Shown one piece after another: positions 29,104 to 48,637 of a stretch of DNA of 64,000 nucleotides (its first letter is position 1; each line of letters opens with the position of its first letter). The stretch is from Atopobium deltae (GTDB lineage: Bacteria > Actinomycetota > Coriobacteriia > Coriobacteriales > Atopobiaceae), in the NCBI RefSeq assembly GCF_001552785.1, contig NZ_KQ959507.1:124001-188000 (forward strand). Reading direction: 5' to 3'. The position numbers were made by a program, and so were the translations under genes. The notes beneath the pieces are model-generated. The model was not told the origin of the DNA. It did not search any database and was given only the letters and a program-made list of their open reading frames with translations.

Positions 29104-29430
29104 AGCTCATCCCTTTCGAAACATCGTCGCTTGTTTTGTTGCCTTATGGCGCTCATCGTACGCGCCTCGTCGTTGGCGAGAAGATCATCGCTTGCGAGAA
29201 GATCGCCACACCGCAACGCGTGTTGTCCATCGCGGGGCGGTATGGTGTTCGTTGCGTATCTGTATAGTATCAAAGTATGTTGTAATCGTTTGATTGCGTA
29301 CTATCTGTACACTATTTGGGTACAGTAGTAGGTGCTGTTGGCATAAGGCGCTGCTCGCGAGCAAAAACCTGGTGGGCGCGTGGTGATCCACAGTAAATTA
29401 TCGTTCGCTGGGATTTGAAAGGCTTTTAGT
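29104..29430. other. Divergent intergenic region with paired CGAGAAG motifs
   Basis: About 330 bases between the HAD gene (minus) and the fmdB-like gene (plus). It holds two direct copies of GCGAGAAGATC 18 bases apart (29176-29204) and AT-rich TATA-like stretches around 29270-29325 that probably contain both promoters. GAAAGG at about 29417-29422 is the ribosome binding site of the plus-strand gene. No coding potential is seen. Confidence 0.4.
29176..29204 (+). repeat. Direct repeat of the CGAGAAG motif in intergenic DNA
   Basis: GCGAGAAGATC occurs at 29176 and again at 29194, the same 18-base spacing as the triplet in priA. Outside any gene, so not explained by codon use. Confidence 0.8.
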
Positions 29431-30956: not shown

Positions 30957-32675
30957 TTAGCGCACTCTCACAAAACGAGCGCAGAAGTGTCCGTCGAACG
31001 AGCCTGATTGAGGGTATGAACGGAAAAATAGCTCATGCTGGATGCAGTCACTCAGCGTTTGTGCTGCTGCGGGATGCTGCTCGGCAAGCACCCGAAAAGC
31101 GTTCGAATCCGCCACTGGTGCCAACTCAAAATATTTGCCTTGTTCTGTCTGCAAAAATGCCTCGACAACCTGCTCGTTTTCTTGCTGCAACACCGAACAG
31201 GTTGAATACATCAAGTGGCCACCGGGAGCCACTTTAGTTGCCGCCGCACGCAACAGCGCCAACTGCAGTGCTGGCAACGACTCAGGATTGGTTGCATCAA
31301 GATCCTCGGGCTCTAGTTTCCACATAATTTCGGGATGACGGCGCAGCGTCCCTGTACCCGAACAGGGCGCATCTACAAACACGAGGTCAAAGTCACGCTG
31401 CAACGCCTCAGGAAGCTGCGAGGAGGGCGCACCAAGCAAACGTCCATCGTAGGTAACACAGCTGAGGTACGTTTCTGGCGAGAAGACTGGCGAAGCGGGC
31501 ATGAATGCGCTGTTATCTGCACCAGGTTGCGCGACGTTGCCTGCATCGGATTTCGCGCGGTTATCTGCACCTATGCCCAAACGCTTTTGAGCGAGCTTTG
31601 TCTTTGAAGCATGCGTGTCAACGCCGCAAATAGAGGCAGGTCCACCAAGCTGGCAGGCAACGTCTTCAAGTAGCAATGTTTTAGTAGCTCTACCCTGCCC
31701 AATTTCGAGTACATAACTATGCGCAAAAGGACTGGTAATCCAGCAAATCATGCGCGCCGCCAAATCACTCACCACGAGCGTTGAGTTTGCTACAAACGCA
31801 GAGTTCAGAAGCGCGGGCACATCATACACGCGGTAGACGCCAGGCAAAACTGCCTCACCTAGACTCGAAAACAATGCCGTGAGTGCGGCGGTTGTTTGTG
31901 ATGAAGATTTCAAAACATTAGCCGACACCCACACGGGGGCCGCTTCATCAAGGCAGGCTAAGAGCTGACAAACTCGATGAAAACCTACCGAATGATAAAG
32001 CTCTCGCACCAGCCATTGCGGAGCGCCTGAAGCAAGGCTCAATGTGGCGAGAAGATCGTCCGAAAGCTCGGCGGGCATCTGGGCAGCGCTGGAGATTTCG
32101 GGCTCGGCTGGCCTCTCGGCAGTAGAGGGATTTTCGACAACGGCGGGCTTCTCGGCAGCCCAGGACATAAGGTGTGTTCGGGCCTCTGTTACGCGCGGGG
32201 CATCAATGTCGGCTATTTTTCGCAACACTGCATTCGCCATGCCGCAGGCGTACGCGCCGACGCTGCGCACCAGCTCAACCCCTTGATTGATCGCGGCGGG
32301 AGCGGGTGTATCCATATAGCAAAGCTCGTAGGCAGCAATGCGCAAAGCATCGCGCAGCTGCGCTTTGAGGCGAGAAGGTTTTGCAAGATGAGACGCGAGT
32401 AATTCGTCAAGCTGGCCTGTGGTTATGATGACTCCCAAGACAAGGCGTAGCACAAACGCCTTGTCACGCGAGGAAAGCTTTTGCACCTGTGAATCACTGC
32501 GGATAATATCGCGCGCGTAGCCGTCTCGGCGGCGAATTTCACGAAGGAGGCCAAGTGCTATGTGGCGGGCCTGCGTGGCGCGGGACTTTTGATGCGGGCG
32601 GGACGCCTGAGGACTTTTTTGCTGCGCGCGGGCGTGAGGCCGGCACTGTGATGAGGATGTTACAGTTTTTCCCAC
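30957..32675 (-). CDS. rsmB: 16S rRNA (cytosine967-C5)-methyltransferase RsmB
   Basis: N-terminal NusB-like RNA-binding domain (about 35-170) and C-terminal SAM methyltransferase with the two family cysteines in VDAPCSGTGTLRRHP and MYSTCSVLQQEN. 572 aa, over 100 longer than usual. The excess is in two Ala/Pro/Glu-rich loops: about 170-215 (AAEKPAV, AERPAEPE), between the domains, and about 400-425 in the methyltransferase. GTG start at 32675 overlapping fmt by 16 bases, with AGGA upstream, hence translationally coupled. Confidence 0.94.
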   Translation of the reverse strand: MGKTVTSSSQCRPHARAQQKSPQASRPHQKSRATQARHIALGLLREIRRRDGYARDIIRSDSQVQKLSSRDKAFVLRLVLGVIITTGQLDELLASHLAKPSRLKAQLRDALRIAAYELCYMDTPAPAAINQGVELVRSVGAYACGMANAVLRKIADIDAPRVTEARTHLMSWAAEKPAVVENPSTAERPAEPEISSAAQMPAELSDDLLATLSLASGAPQWLVRELYHSVGFHRVCQLLACLDEAAPVWVSANVLKSSSQTTAALTALFSSLGEAVLPGVYRVYDVPALLNSAFVANSTLVVSDLAARMICWITSPFAHSYVLEIGQGRATKTLLLEDVACQLGGPASICGVDTHASKTKLAQKRLGIGADNRAKSDAGNVAQPGADNSAFMPASPVFSPETYLSCVTYDGRLLGAPSSQLPEALQRDFDLVFVDAPCSGTGTLRRHPEIMWKLEPEDLDATNPESLPALQLALLRAAATKVAPGGHLMYSTCSVLQQENEQVVEAFLQTEQGKYFELAPVADSNAFRVLAEQHPAAAQTLSDCIQHELFFRSYPQSGSFDGHFCARFVRVR

Positions 32676-34411: not shown

Positions 34412-36892
34412 TTATAGCAGGTCGTATGTGTCAACATCTATCGCCATTCGTATACCCGTTTTTGTGGCGGAGCGTGCACCAGGACGTGCATCCGAACGTG
34501 CGTCAGCTTTTGCACCAGCACCACCGCTCGTGGGCGCACCCACACTCGATTGCGCCACTTGAGCCACACAGTCGCTGAGCAATGCGGCAGGCTCCGAATC
34601 CAGCGGAGACTTTAACACCACGTGCATACGATAGCGGTCTTGTACTCGTGATTTTACACAATCGGCGGGCCCCAACAAAACCCACCCCTCGCGTCCCTCA
34701 AGTTCTTGACGAATACTGCACGCGAGTTTCTCGACAGCCTGGCGCACCTGGGCCTGATTGCTTCCCCACACGATAACGTTGGACAATCGCGCGTACGGCG
34801 GATAATACGCCTCTTTGCGATCCTGCAATTCCTGCCGAATAAACGCTGCACGATTATGCGTGCACACCGCTTGAATTGCCGGATGAGAAGCCCAATAACT
34901 TTGAATGATCACTCGACCAGCGCAAACGCCTCGTCCTGCTCGACCAGCCACCTGCTCGAGCAGGCTATAGCTGCGCTCGGCGGCTCTAAAATCGGGAAGC
35001 TTGAGCGTCGTGTCGGCATTAATTACACCCACGAGGGTTACCTCGGGAAAGTCGAGACCTTTCGCGATCATCTGCGTGCCGATAAGAACGGCGCAGGGGC
35101 TGGCATCAAACGCTTCAAGCAAGCGCTGGTGGCCATCTTTGGTTTTAGTCGTATCGGCATCCATACGAATGATGTCGACGGCGGAAGCGACGGTAGAGTT
35201 CGGGGCGCCCTTCTCGGCAGGGGCGGGCTTCTCGGCAGTAGAGCCCTTCTCGGCCGCGCTGCAAGCTTCGCCCCCCAACAGTATGCGCAATTCGTCCTCA
35301 ACACGCTGCGTACCCACACCAAACTGCGCCAAATAGCGGCTGCCGCAATTCGGACAGTGCGTCGAAGGGTCGGGCCACGCGCGGATACTCCAGCTGCGCC
35401 CGCAGCTATGACACATCAGGGCATGAGTGCGCTCATGATACGTCAGCGAGGTGGAACAATGCGAGCAGCTCGGCACGCAACCGCACTCTCGGCACATCAA
35501 AAAGTTTGCAAAACCGCGGCGATTAAGCATCAGCACCGCCTTTTGCTTGCGTGCAACGACCTCGTGCAACGCTTGCGTCAGCGGCTCCGAAAAAATAGAG
35601 CGATGACCTGCGGCGAATTGCTCGGTCATATCGACAATCTGCACTTGGGGCATGCAAATGGTGCCTGGACGCGAGCTCATACACACGCGCTCCCAATGCG
35701 AATCTGCAAAGCTACCGCACTGCGTGCGAGCCAGACTTTCAAGCGATGGCGTGGCACTACCCAACACCAGCGCCGCCCCATGCAGCTGTGCCAAGCGCTG
35801 CGCCACCTCGCGGGCGTGATAGCGCGGCGAGGTGTCCTGTTTATAGGAGTACTCGTGCTCCTCGTCGATGACGATAAGACCGAGGTTAGCAAGCGGCGCA
35901 AACAACGCCGAGCGCGCACCCACCACGACCTGTGCAACACCGCGACGAAGCATATCCCACTGGTCATAGCGCTCCCCGACCGAAAGGCGCGAATGCAAGA
36001 CGCAGACCTTCTCGCCAAAGCGACTGCGGAAGCGACCCACCGTTTGAGCCGTGAGGGAAATTTCGGGCACGAGCACGATGGCTTCGCGCCCCTGCTCGAG
36101 CACCTCGGAAATCGCATTGAGGTAGACCTCGGTTTTGCCCGAGCCTGTCACACCGTCGATGAGCACCACGTCACCACAGGCACGCGCGCGAGCTGCGCGA
36201 ATGGTATCCAGCGCGTGCTGCTGCTCGTCGGTGAGCTGCTTGGGCGCAAGGGCAACAGCGCTCGATAAACTCGTGTCTGCAAGATCGCGTATTTGACGCT
36301 TAGTATAAATGTCGACGACGCCCTTTGAGGCAAGCGTTTTGAGGGTGGCGCTCGACGAGCCAAGGGTTGCCGTGAGCTCGCTCACACGCAGCGGACCCTG
36401 CTGCAGCGCCTGAATAATCATGCGCTGACGAGCGGCATTAGCACGGGGTACAAAGTTTTGCGCAGCCTCGTCTGTGTGCAGACGCACCCAACGAGCATCG
36501 ACTGCAGCATCTGCGGCGCCTTGCAGCTCCCACGCGCCGCTGCTGGAATCGCGCACCATTTTGAGCGTCTGACCTGGGGCAATAAAGAGACGCAGGCATT
36601 CGCTTATGGAGGCCGCGTACTCGTCACTCATCCAAAACGCGAGCTCGACGGCCTTCTCGTCAAACGCGGCGGGAGCCAAAATGCGCTCTATAGATTTAAT
36701 GGCATCGGGGCTAATTCCCGCAGGCGGCTGGTCGAGAAGATCGATGACATAACCGACGCATCGACGTCCCGAGAAGGGTACCAACACCGTCGTTCCCACC
36801 TGGCAGCTGTGCTCGAGCTGCTCTGGAACCGCATAATCAAAAGCGGTTGACAGCGCGCGTGTGGGAATATCGACCACCACCGATGCAAACAT
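34412..36892 (-). CDS. priA: Primosomal replication protein N' (PriA helicase)
   Basis: Restarts collapsed replication forks. N-terminal DNA-binding domain (MFASVVVDIPTRALSTAFDY), Walker A GVTGSGKTEVY near 245, DEEHEYSYKQD, and eight zinc-binding cysteines in CREC...CSHC...CHSC...CPNC (about 470-520). 826 aa. A Lys/Pro/Ala insert between the zinc region and the C-terminal helicase half consists of three six-residue units (AEKGST, AEKPAP, AEKGAP) encoded by an 18-base tandem array of the CGAGAAG motif. Heads the priA-def-fmt-rsmB-glpX operon. Confidence 0.95.
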   Translation of the reverse strand: MFASVVVDIPTRALSTAFDYAVPEQLEHSCQVGTTVLVPFSGRRCVGYVIDLLDQPPAGISPDAIKSIERILAPAAFDEKAVELAFWMSDEYAASISECLRLFIAPGQTLKMVRDSSSGAWELQGAADAAVDARWVRLHTDEAAQNFVPRANAARQRMIIQALQQGPLRVSELTATLGSSSATLKTLASKGVVDIYTKRQIRDLADTSLSSAVALAPKQLTDEQQHALDTIRAARARACGDVVLIDGVTGSGKTEVYLNAISEVLEQGREAIVLVPEISLTAQTVGRFRSRFGEKVCVLHSRLSVGERYDQWDMLRRGVAQVVVGARSALFAPLANLGLIVIDEEHEYSYKQDTSPRYHAREVAQRLAQLHGAALVLGSATPSLESLARTQCGSFADSHWERVCMSSRPGTICMPQVQIVDMTEQFAAGHRSIFSEPLTQALHEVVARKQKAVLMLNRRGFANFLMCRECGCVPSCSHCSTSLTYHERTHALMCHSCGRSWSIRAWPDPSTHCPNCGSRYLAQFGVGTQRVEDELRILLGGEACSAAEKGSTAEKPAPAEKGAPNSTVASAVDIIRMDADTTKTKDGHQRLLEAFDASPCAVLIGTQMIAKGLDFPEVTLVGVINADTTLKLPDFRAAERSYSLLEQVAGRAGRGVCAGRVIIQSYWASHPAIQAVCTHNRAAFIRQELQDRKEAYYPPYARLSNVIVWGSNQAQVRQAVEKLACSIRQELEGREGWVLLGPADCVKSRVQDRYRMHVVLKSPLDSEPAALLSDCVAQVAQSSVGAPTSGGAGAKADARSDARPGARSATKTGIRMAIDVDTYDLL
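35210..35263 (-). repeat. Three 18-bp tandem units, each containing the CGAGAAG motif
   Basis: CTTCTCGGC recurs at 35210, 35228 and 35246, exactly 18 bases apart, with diverged remainders. It encodes the six-residue repeats within the PriA insertion. Confidence 0.9.
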
Positions 36893-47062: not shown

Positions 47063-48637
47063 TCAGTTCCACTCCTCCACCGTTTTTCTCGACAGCCACG
47101 CAAGCTGCGCTTCGACGGTATTCTCGAGACGCCCATAAACCACCTCGCGCAAAATATCTTCGAGCTGCGCGGCAACCCACGGACCAGGGGTATCGTCAAA
47201 GAGCCTGATAATATCGCGACCGCTCACAACCAAATCCTTGATGCGGTAGACGATCGTACCGTCCTGCAGAAGACGACGCAACACCGCCTCGATCTTATCG
47301 ATCTCCAGTGCGTAAGCGCGGTAAGGCTTGGCTTTGCCCAGTGCATCGGAGCGCTTCAAAATGAAGGATTCAAACGCAAGGGGCAGCGCCATGTCGGGAC
47401 AATATTTGTCGAGGTCGGCCATGAAGCGCAGGACCGAATGGCGGGTGGGCTTGACGGGACGATCGTGAAAGCGCACGAGGTCAACGCAGCTATCTACGAG
47501 CGACTTGGGCAGGGCCAATCGGCGCAAAATGGTTTTGACCATCTTAGCACCCGCCTCGGGATGGCCGTAAAAATGACCACGACCGTCAGCATCGTAGATG
47601 GCGCAGCGCGGCTTGGCGATGTCATGAAACATCGATGCCCAACGCAGGCGCTCCGACGCCAGCCCGCCCGAAAACGATTCCGCTGCAGTTGCAACCTGAA
47701 TGGCGTGATTGTAGAGGTCGTAGCAATGATACGGCGTGTGCTGATCAAAGTTGACCATCTCGCCTATTTCGGGAATAGCTGCGACCATAACCTCTTGCTG
47801 GGTGGCAAGCGCCCAGGGCATGCGACCTGCGGCAATAATGCCCCGAAGCTCGGTGCCGATGCGCTCTTGTGCGATGCGCGACAGTTGTGGTGCACAGGAG
47901 CGAACTGCCCGCTGGGTAGTCTTCTCGATAGCAAAATCAAAGCGCGCTGCAAAACGAAGGGCTCGCAAAACGCGCAGGGCATCCTCGCTTAAGCGCTGGT
48001 AGGGATCGCCCACCGCGCGAATGCAGCTAGCGAGAAGATCGGCGTGGCCGTCATAGGGATCGTACAGGCCGCGCCGCGGATGATACGCCATCGCATTGAT
48101 CGTGAAGTCTCGACGCGACAAATCCTGCGTGATGGAATCGACGAAGCGCACTTCATCGGGGTGGCGCGCGTCCGAATAGCCAGACTCCACGCGGTAGGTG
48201 GTGATTTCGACAGGCTTGCGTGCGGCAGGTGTATTGCGACCGCTGGGTTTATTGCGACCATCAGGTGTATTGTGAGCATCGGATTCATTGCGACCGTCAG
48301 GTTCACAGTCGCACACGGCGGTAATGGTACCGTGCTTCGTACCCGTAAGGTGCACCTCGATGTCAGCGTCACGCAGGATCTGCGCAGTAGCTTGCCACGG
48401 TGCATTGCTGCAGATGTCAACATCATGGGACGGATTGCCGAGAAGAGCATCGCGCACCCAGCCTCCCACAACCCAGGCTTCATAGCCAGCGTCTTCGATC
48501 AGCTGCAAGATATACAGCGCATATGAGGGCAACACAAAGAAGTTTTCGCTACTGGCGGTGGTGCACGGCGTTACGCTGGGTTTATCGGTGGGGTGCTTGG
48601 CGGGGTTGTCAGCACGTGCGGTCTTCTCGTCAGACAT
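47063..48637 (-). CDS. cca: CCA-adding tRNA nucleotidyltransferase / polyA polymerase family
   Basis: The head domain (about 55-210) has VGGWVRDALLGNPSHDVDIC, the nucleotidyltransferase GG and DxD motifs. An RNA-binding region and an HD domain follow, with HAIQVATAAE and the metal pair in MFHDIAKPRC. The start at 48637 (MSDEKTARADNP) has a modest AGGG; a TTG-started frame reaches 48751 but looks non-family. 524 aa. An Asn/Arg/Asp/Gly repeat-like insert (PDGRNESD, PDGRNKPSGRN, about 125-155) interrupts the head domain. The tRNA genes next door already encode CCA, so it may serve repair or other tRNAs. Confidence 0.93.
   Translation of the reverse strand: MSDEKTARADNPAKHPTDKPSVTPCTTASSENFFVLPSYALYILQLIEDAGYEAWVVGGWVRDALLGNPSHDVDICSNAPWQATAQILRDADIEVHLTGTKHGTITAVCDCEPDGRNESDAHNTPDGRNKPSGRNTPAARKPVEITTYRVESGYSDARHPDEVRFVDSITQDLSRRDFTINAMAYHPRRGLYDPYDGHADLLASCIRAVGDPYQRLSEDALRVLRALRFAARFDFAIEKTTQRAVRSCAPQLSRIAQERIGTELRGIIAAGRMPWALATQQEVMVAAIPEIGEMVNFDQHTPYHCYDLYNHAIQVATAAESFSGGLASERLRWASMFHDIAKPRCAIYDADGRGHFYGHPEAGAKMVKTILRRLALPKSLVDSCVDLVRFHDRPVKPTRHSVLRFMADLDKYCPDMALPLAFESFILKRSDALGKAKPYRAYALEIDKIEAVLRRLLQDGTIVYRIKDLVVSGRDIIRLFDDTPGPWVAAQLEDILREVVYGRLENTVEAQLAWLSRKTVEEWN

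Follow-up and report, generated by a model that had tools for sequence, protein, structure and literature searches.

A three-copy array in the priA gene of Atopobium deltae is a local cluster of a genome-wide dispersed motif that may act as a DNA-uptake sequence

The window analyzed here, a stretch of 64,000 nucleotides from Atopobium deltae, carries the gene for the replication restart helicase PriA on its minus strand, and within this gene lies a short tandem array. The features of the array and of a second site outside genes are as follows (positions are those of the window).

34412-36892, minus strand: priA (replication restart helicase PriA), 826 amino acids, identified as PriA by Pfam; the core CTTCTCG/CGAGAAG occurs seven times
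35180-35269, minus strand: lineage-specific PriA loop insert, at approximately residues 542-571, flanked by the zinc-binding region and the second helicase lobe (Pfam domains)
35201-35254, minus strand: three 18-base (six-codon) units encoding AEKGST-AEKPAP-AEKGAP, each of which opens with GCCGAGAAG
35210-35218, plus strand: motif copy 1, CTTCTCGGC
35228-35236, plus strand: motif copy 2, CTTCTCGGC
35246-35254, plus strand: motif copy 3, CTTCTCGGC
29177-29201, minus strand: core pair (two copies of CGAGAAG) 18 bases apart, outside called genes; the two copies show one and two mismatches to the 9-mer

The copies of CTTCTCGGC start at 35210, 35228 and 35246 on the plus strand, that is, antisense within priA, exactly as an earlier note on this DNA had described for three copies spaced 18 bases apart and encoding AEKGST, AEKPAP and AEKGAP. 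That note placed the array at 35210-35263; the array is real, but this interval is off by 9 bases, the coding units being at 35201-35254. TRF calls the array at 35202-35254 with a period of 18, 2.9 copies and 80% matches. All three units share exactly the same 9-base motif part, while the remaining 9 bases agree pairwise at four, five and six of nine positions. The view that the unit is anchored on the motif while the rest diverges is therefore borne out, and the motif is also enriched genome-wide (see below).

The array occupies a loop of about 30 residues that is absent from G001 and G002, the other two genomes of the genus that were compared, with matches breaking at residues 541 and 572, so that the repeat is found in one of three genomes of the genus. 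A break at this point is also seen when PriA is aligned to the solved PriA chain 8fak_H. None of ten aligned relatives (Atopobium fossor, A. minutum, other Atopobiaceae, Collinsella, Slackia and others) carries the EK repeat; L009 has a short unrelated stretch at this position. The loop that harbours the array is permissive and of low complexity, and this lineage has acquired it in PriA. We also considered whether motif-bearing inserts form a mobile or systematic class, and rejected this idea because the motif density of inserts equals the background. Among 107 aligned genes (of 340 called), the 55 inserts of at least 8 amino acids carried 1.43 motif copies per kb, which is the background rate, and 8 of 83 in-frame motif sites fell in inserts, compared with 6 of 85 control Glu-Lys sites.

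The earlier note had also raised the possibility of a genome-wide 18-base peak in the distances between motif copies. In the whole genome, 67 same-orientation CTTCTCG pairs have at most 30 bases between them (spacing 7-37); the spacing is 18 in ten of these pairs, 15 in eight, 30 in seven and 33 in seven. If the ten in-frame classes are taken as equally likely, at least one of them attains a count of 10 with a probability of P=0.48, so the count at 18 is unremarkable, and the 18-base period was rejected as a signal. As many as 57 of the 67 spacings are multiples of 3, because the clusters sit in reading frames. The array thus carries a caution: its 18-base period is merely six codons, and it would have no function of its own. 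The pair at 29177/29195, noted earlier for the same spacing in non-coding DNA, is real, is 18 bases apart and lies outside the called genes. However, it consists of the 7-base core only, and since 18 is not special among in-frame spacings, it provides no evidence for a fixed 18-base unit. As separate observations, of the ten core pairs that are out of frame, four have a spacing of exactly 17 bases (C5:107812, C10:39127, C33:176416 and C33:196313), and positions 48226-48302 of the window hold a TRF array with 36- and 18-base periods, the sequence of which is unrelated to the motif.

The priA array is a real but local cluster of a motif that is dispersed throughout the genome. In the window, CTTCTCGGC occurs 26 times, compared with 0.70 in shuffled sequences; genome-wide it occurs 339 times, compared with 16 for the pattern read backwards, and the corresponding counts for the 13-mer GRYCTTCTCGNCA are 296 and 2. 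The core CGAGAAG/CTTCTCG is found 1,660 times in the 1.447-Mb genome (454 for the reversed pattern), with a density of about 1.3 copies per kb in the sampled part. The consensus, GnCGRTCTTCTCGnCAG or its complement (approximately ctgnCGAGAAGRYCgnc), is much the same in intergenic as in coding sites, and EM fitting of non-coding DNA from A. deltae gave ctgnCGAGAAGatCgnc, with 13.2 bits and approximately 149 sites in 58.7 kb. In a 424-kb sample, the core was observed 490 times in coding DNA, compared with 108.6 after synonymous-codon shuffling, and 76 times between called genes, compared with 6.8 expected (approximately 11-fold); the gene calls come from a custom script that missed some genes, comEC among them. 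When only gaps shorter than 500 bases were counted, 47 core sites remained in 39.8 kb, or 1.18 per kb, which is near the coding density of 1.35. The observed and expected counts over the six frame and orientation classes were 25/2.7, 6/0.3, 290/68.3, 70/23.8, 28/3.1 and 71/9.0, that is, 2.9- to 20-fold. Given that all six classes are enriched, the cause acts on DNA and not on protein or mRNA alone. In the same sample, the variant core CGATAAG was also frequent in coding DNA (290 vs approximately 73-80) and mildly raised in intergenic DNA (20 vs 7.8).

We also analyzed how the copies are distributed among genes and in relation to each other. Core counts per gene are Poisson-like, with a dispersion of 0.84, and low-GC genes have a motif density of 0.82 per kb. 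Genes without a match in the sampled relatives carry 1.33 copies per kb and well-conserved genes 1.45, so that neither a bias towards core genes nor a depletion in foreign DNA was found in this comparison, which is a weak test since the relatives were sampled only partly. Where two sites between genes are neighbours, they share a strand in 38 cases and lie on opposite strands in 33, and inverted intergenic pairs are rare, with two opposite-strand pairs within 60 bases in the 424-kb sample. At 131 aligned orthologous sites, the exact core was present in the relative at 25, and the majority of coding sites are in sequence that aligns. These results indicate that the copies mostly differ from the relative by base substitutions and not by insertion.

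Motif copies are closer together than uniform placement would give: the 424-kb sample contains 46 same-strand core pairs within 60 bases, compared with approximately 22.7 expected, and 16 opposite-strand pairs. Pairs of Glu-Lys dipeptides at most 12 codons apart and both coded by the motif numbered 22, compared with 11.2 for permuted labels (P=0.001), and clustered Glu-Lys dipeptides are motif-coded in 73.5% of cases (n=68), compared with 50.5% of isolated ones (n=475). The earlier suggestion of local duplication of a motif-bearing unit, or selection for several copies, agrees with this excess, although either process predicts it. Neighbouring copies have flanks that match each other only a little better than random ones do (3.86 vs 3.21 of 9 bases), which does not establish either duplication or an independent gain of copies. 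The translated examples of clusters are mostly low-complexity stretches of A, P, E, K and D. A scan of ten cluster proteins besides PriA identified eight and left two without a family; the eight are MazG, an AddB-like nuclease, RsgA, AmaP, an OppF/DppF-type ATPase, an ATP-grasp protein, DNA polymerase I and a RecJ-RecQ fusion. DNA-maintenance genes make up a suggestive share of this hand-picked set. The RecJ-RecQ fusion is itself of note, with both proteins in one open frame of approximately 1,330 amino acids (C1:92787-96767, L017) and a three-copy motif array between the domains. In the window, a gene named by eye as RsmB contains, at 32148, the low-complexity stretch AAEKPAVVENPSTAERPAEPE, which carries one motif copy.

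Related dialects of the motif were found in related genera, as judged from sampled stretches of 12 relatives. The observed/expected counts of intergenic CGAGAAG were 32/4.2 in G015, 29/2.3 in G017, 21/3.6 in G005, 12/3.0 in G018, 8/1.7 in G013, 8/2.6 in G004, 6/2.1 in G007, 5/1.9 in G022 and 3/3.5 in G024, and 4/2.0 in G025, which belongs to another family. The congeners G001 and G002 showed no such intergenic enrichment (0/1.7 and 2/1.3) despite enrichment in coding DNA; intergenic CGAGAAA in G001 stood at 9/2.7. The variant GCGAGAAG was found between genes 24 times in G015 (1.4 expected) and 26 times in G017 (0.9 expected). In G024, a different, TGCCGAGAAACCC-like form dominates between genes (L083-L092), with 17 intergenic occurrences of CCGAGAAA (0.8 expected); the coding DNA of this genome is also enriched in the 7-mers TCTGCCA/CCAAAGA. 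In most of the relatives, the consensus again has a C three bases past the core, and enrichment both between genes and in all frames is present in A. deltae and G015. These motif forms rest on k-mer counts, none of seven EM fits on relatives being usable since they drifted to simple composition, and four of 20 relative stretches were dropped as shorter than 10 kb. Across 120 genomes sampled from the order, counts of CTGNCGAGAAR were high in several genera of Atopobiaceae and low in most others. Two genomes from other families of the order also had high counts, namely G026 (178 vs 25) and G107 (97 vs 6).

Besides the motif, we looked at the machinery for competence and recombination. The comEC gene was found at C25:85118-85930 (L029) with a 549-aa open frame that lacks the C-terminal domain, compared with 814 aa in G001; comEA, read by eye from the sequence, precedes it, and holA, also named by eye, follows directly. 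A dprA gene is located at C2:15780. T2SSE gave only one strong match, which belongs to a Tad-like cluster that also encodes T2SSF and ParA-like proteins; Tad-type pilus ATPase and platform genes are present. Given that comEC was found in 38 of the 40 genomes searched, its presence does not track the motif. On C5, an AddB-like protein of the PD-(D/E)XK type has another PD-(D/E)XK match in its vicinity.

Several explanations other than DNA uptake were weighed. For the array itself, chance would suffice if one 18-base unit had been duplicated by slippage in an Ala/Pro/Glu/Lys-rich PriA loop and the copies merely happened to contain a common codon string; the array would then be functionless and unselected as an array. 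The unremarkable spacing, the background motif density of inserts, the restriction of the repeat to one of three genomes of the genus and the slight likeness of neighbouring flanks are all consistent with this account, whereas the invariance of the motif half of the units against the variation of the other half, the more frequent motif coding of clustered Glu-Lys and the similar clusters at other spacings in unrelated genes argue against it, and we consider it somewhat unlikely. A pure codon or dipeptide preference (Ala-Glu-Lys in favoured codons) would explain why 81 of 129 copies of CTTCTCGGC in the sample encode Ala-Glu-Lys, but it accounts neither for the 76 intergenic cores nor for the enrichment of every other frame. 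Moreover, 290 of the 543 Glu-Lys dipeptides in the 340 called genes are written CGAGAAG, or 53%, compared with approximately 11% from codon usage. Codon preference is therefore contradicted for the motif as a whole and is very improbable, although codon choice still shapes where copies are located. The motif could also be bound by a protein, whether nucleoid-associated, condensin-like or of another DNA-binding kind, or it could result from a mutational process that is sequence-specific. Its frame-independence, its even spread with Poisson-like counts per gene and its lack of strong polarity agree with such an origin; however, the dialects between related genera and the approximately 1,660 cores would fit uptake better than they fit the known site-specific nucleoid proteins, so that we judge this origin unlikely.

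Two further candidates would be expected to show polarity. Counted by strand over uninterrupted stretches of 60-200 kb, the motif is far from being polar in A. deltae and 12 other genomes (for example, 127/101 in G015 and 53/52 in G001). Tilts are greatest in G017 (69/44), G013 (64/44) and G004 (58/34), where the same stretches give intergenic counts of 15/14, 4/4 and 4/4, and large tilts do not consistently track gene direction; G005 has 16/5 between genes but 70/83 overall. Strong replichore polarity of the motif was thus not found, either in these stretches or among neighbouring intergenic sites. An apparent hint of polarity, with plus-strand places alone among the matches listed for G015, G054 and G073, was a listing artefact, since the sequence of G015 has both strands. 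With the same scripts, E. coli Chi gave 38/7 by strand, with two of 45 copies outside called genes, and E. coli KOPS gave 10/1; CTTCTCG in E. coli coding DNA was observed 21 times, compared with approximately 15 expected. The motif resembles Chi sites (of RecBCD/AddAB) in being short, dense and frequent in coding DNA, and the neighbouring AddB-like and PD-(D/E)XK proteins would allow a Chi-like recombination signal for an AddAB-type nuclease. In contrast to E. coli Chi, the motif has no strong strand bias and is nearly as dense between genes as within them, and its conserved stretch of approximately 17 bases, with an internal free position, is longer than known Chi sites. A Chi-like role is accordingly quite doubtful. 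A polar chromosome-segregation signal of the KOPS/SRS type is brought to mind by the purine-rich GAGAAG core, which the SRS of Bacillus subtilis resembles; the strand counts contradict KOPS/SRS function or replication polarity, and this explanation is hardly credible.

The motif fits uptake sequences better than it fits Chi, KOPS or codon bias, and uptake is the function that we infer for it, with natural-transformation bias as the putative pressure behind it. We consider the chances about even that the array is a local cluster of the dispersed motif in a permissive PriA loop and that the motif is driven by such a bias. A surface receptor, perhaps a Tad-pilus component, would prefer motif-bearing DNA, which would raise the frequency with which alleles with more copies are taken up and recombined. 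Where a loop is free to vary, in-frame slippage or repeated point changes would add copies, and Glu-Lys codons (GAG AAG after C) would be the cheapest encoding of one copy. Against uptake stand the comEC without its C-terminal domain, the lack of intergenic enrichment of CGAGAAG in G001 and G002, the absence of a core-gene bias and the rarity of inverted pairs. A Tad locus is reported to be required for transformation in the actinobacterium Micrococcus luteus (PMC6668835). More tentatively, and with the balance leaning against it, the Atopobiaceae may possess a DNA-uptake sequence of their own, with genus-level dialects and Tad-pilus-based competence, the copies of which are stacked in flexible loops of proteins, several of which serve DNA replication and recombination (PriA, RecJ-RecQ, PolA and AddB-like), and would favour these genes in transformation. 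If this speculation is true, uptake sequences would have arisen independently a third time, and for the first time outside Proteobacteria; self-recognition in transformation would then evolve repeatedly and on a different machine, and gene exchange in the Coriobacteriales would be given a testable route. Taken alone, the priA array is a small illustration of how such a motif can shape a protein loop. Among the matches listed, judged by title and the start of the abstract, no paper on an uptake sequence in Coriobacteria was found.

Inverted pairs acting as terminators are typical of the neisserial DUS and are not defining for uptake sequences. Like the DUS of Neisseriaceae, as described in PMC3630211, the motif occurs in thousands of copies per genome, in coding and non-coding DNA and at permissive positions, with a short core and with dialects in related genera. 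It differs from the DUS in its unrelated sequence, its host in the Actinomycetota and its lack of terminator inverted pairs, and its uptake role is putative. The USS of Pasteurellaceae has a core with weaker conserved flanks, as does the motif described here. According to PMC12616744, sequence-specific DNA uptake is known in Neisseriaceae and Pasteurellaceae only, and the receptor of the USS is itself merely predicted. With the USS as presented there, the motif shares a 9-base core and dialects within a family (PMC12616744), whereas its sequence is another one and its host belongs to another phylum.
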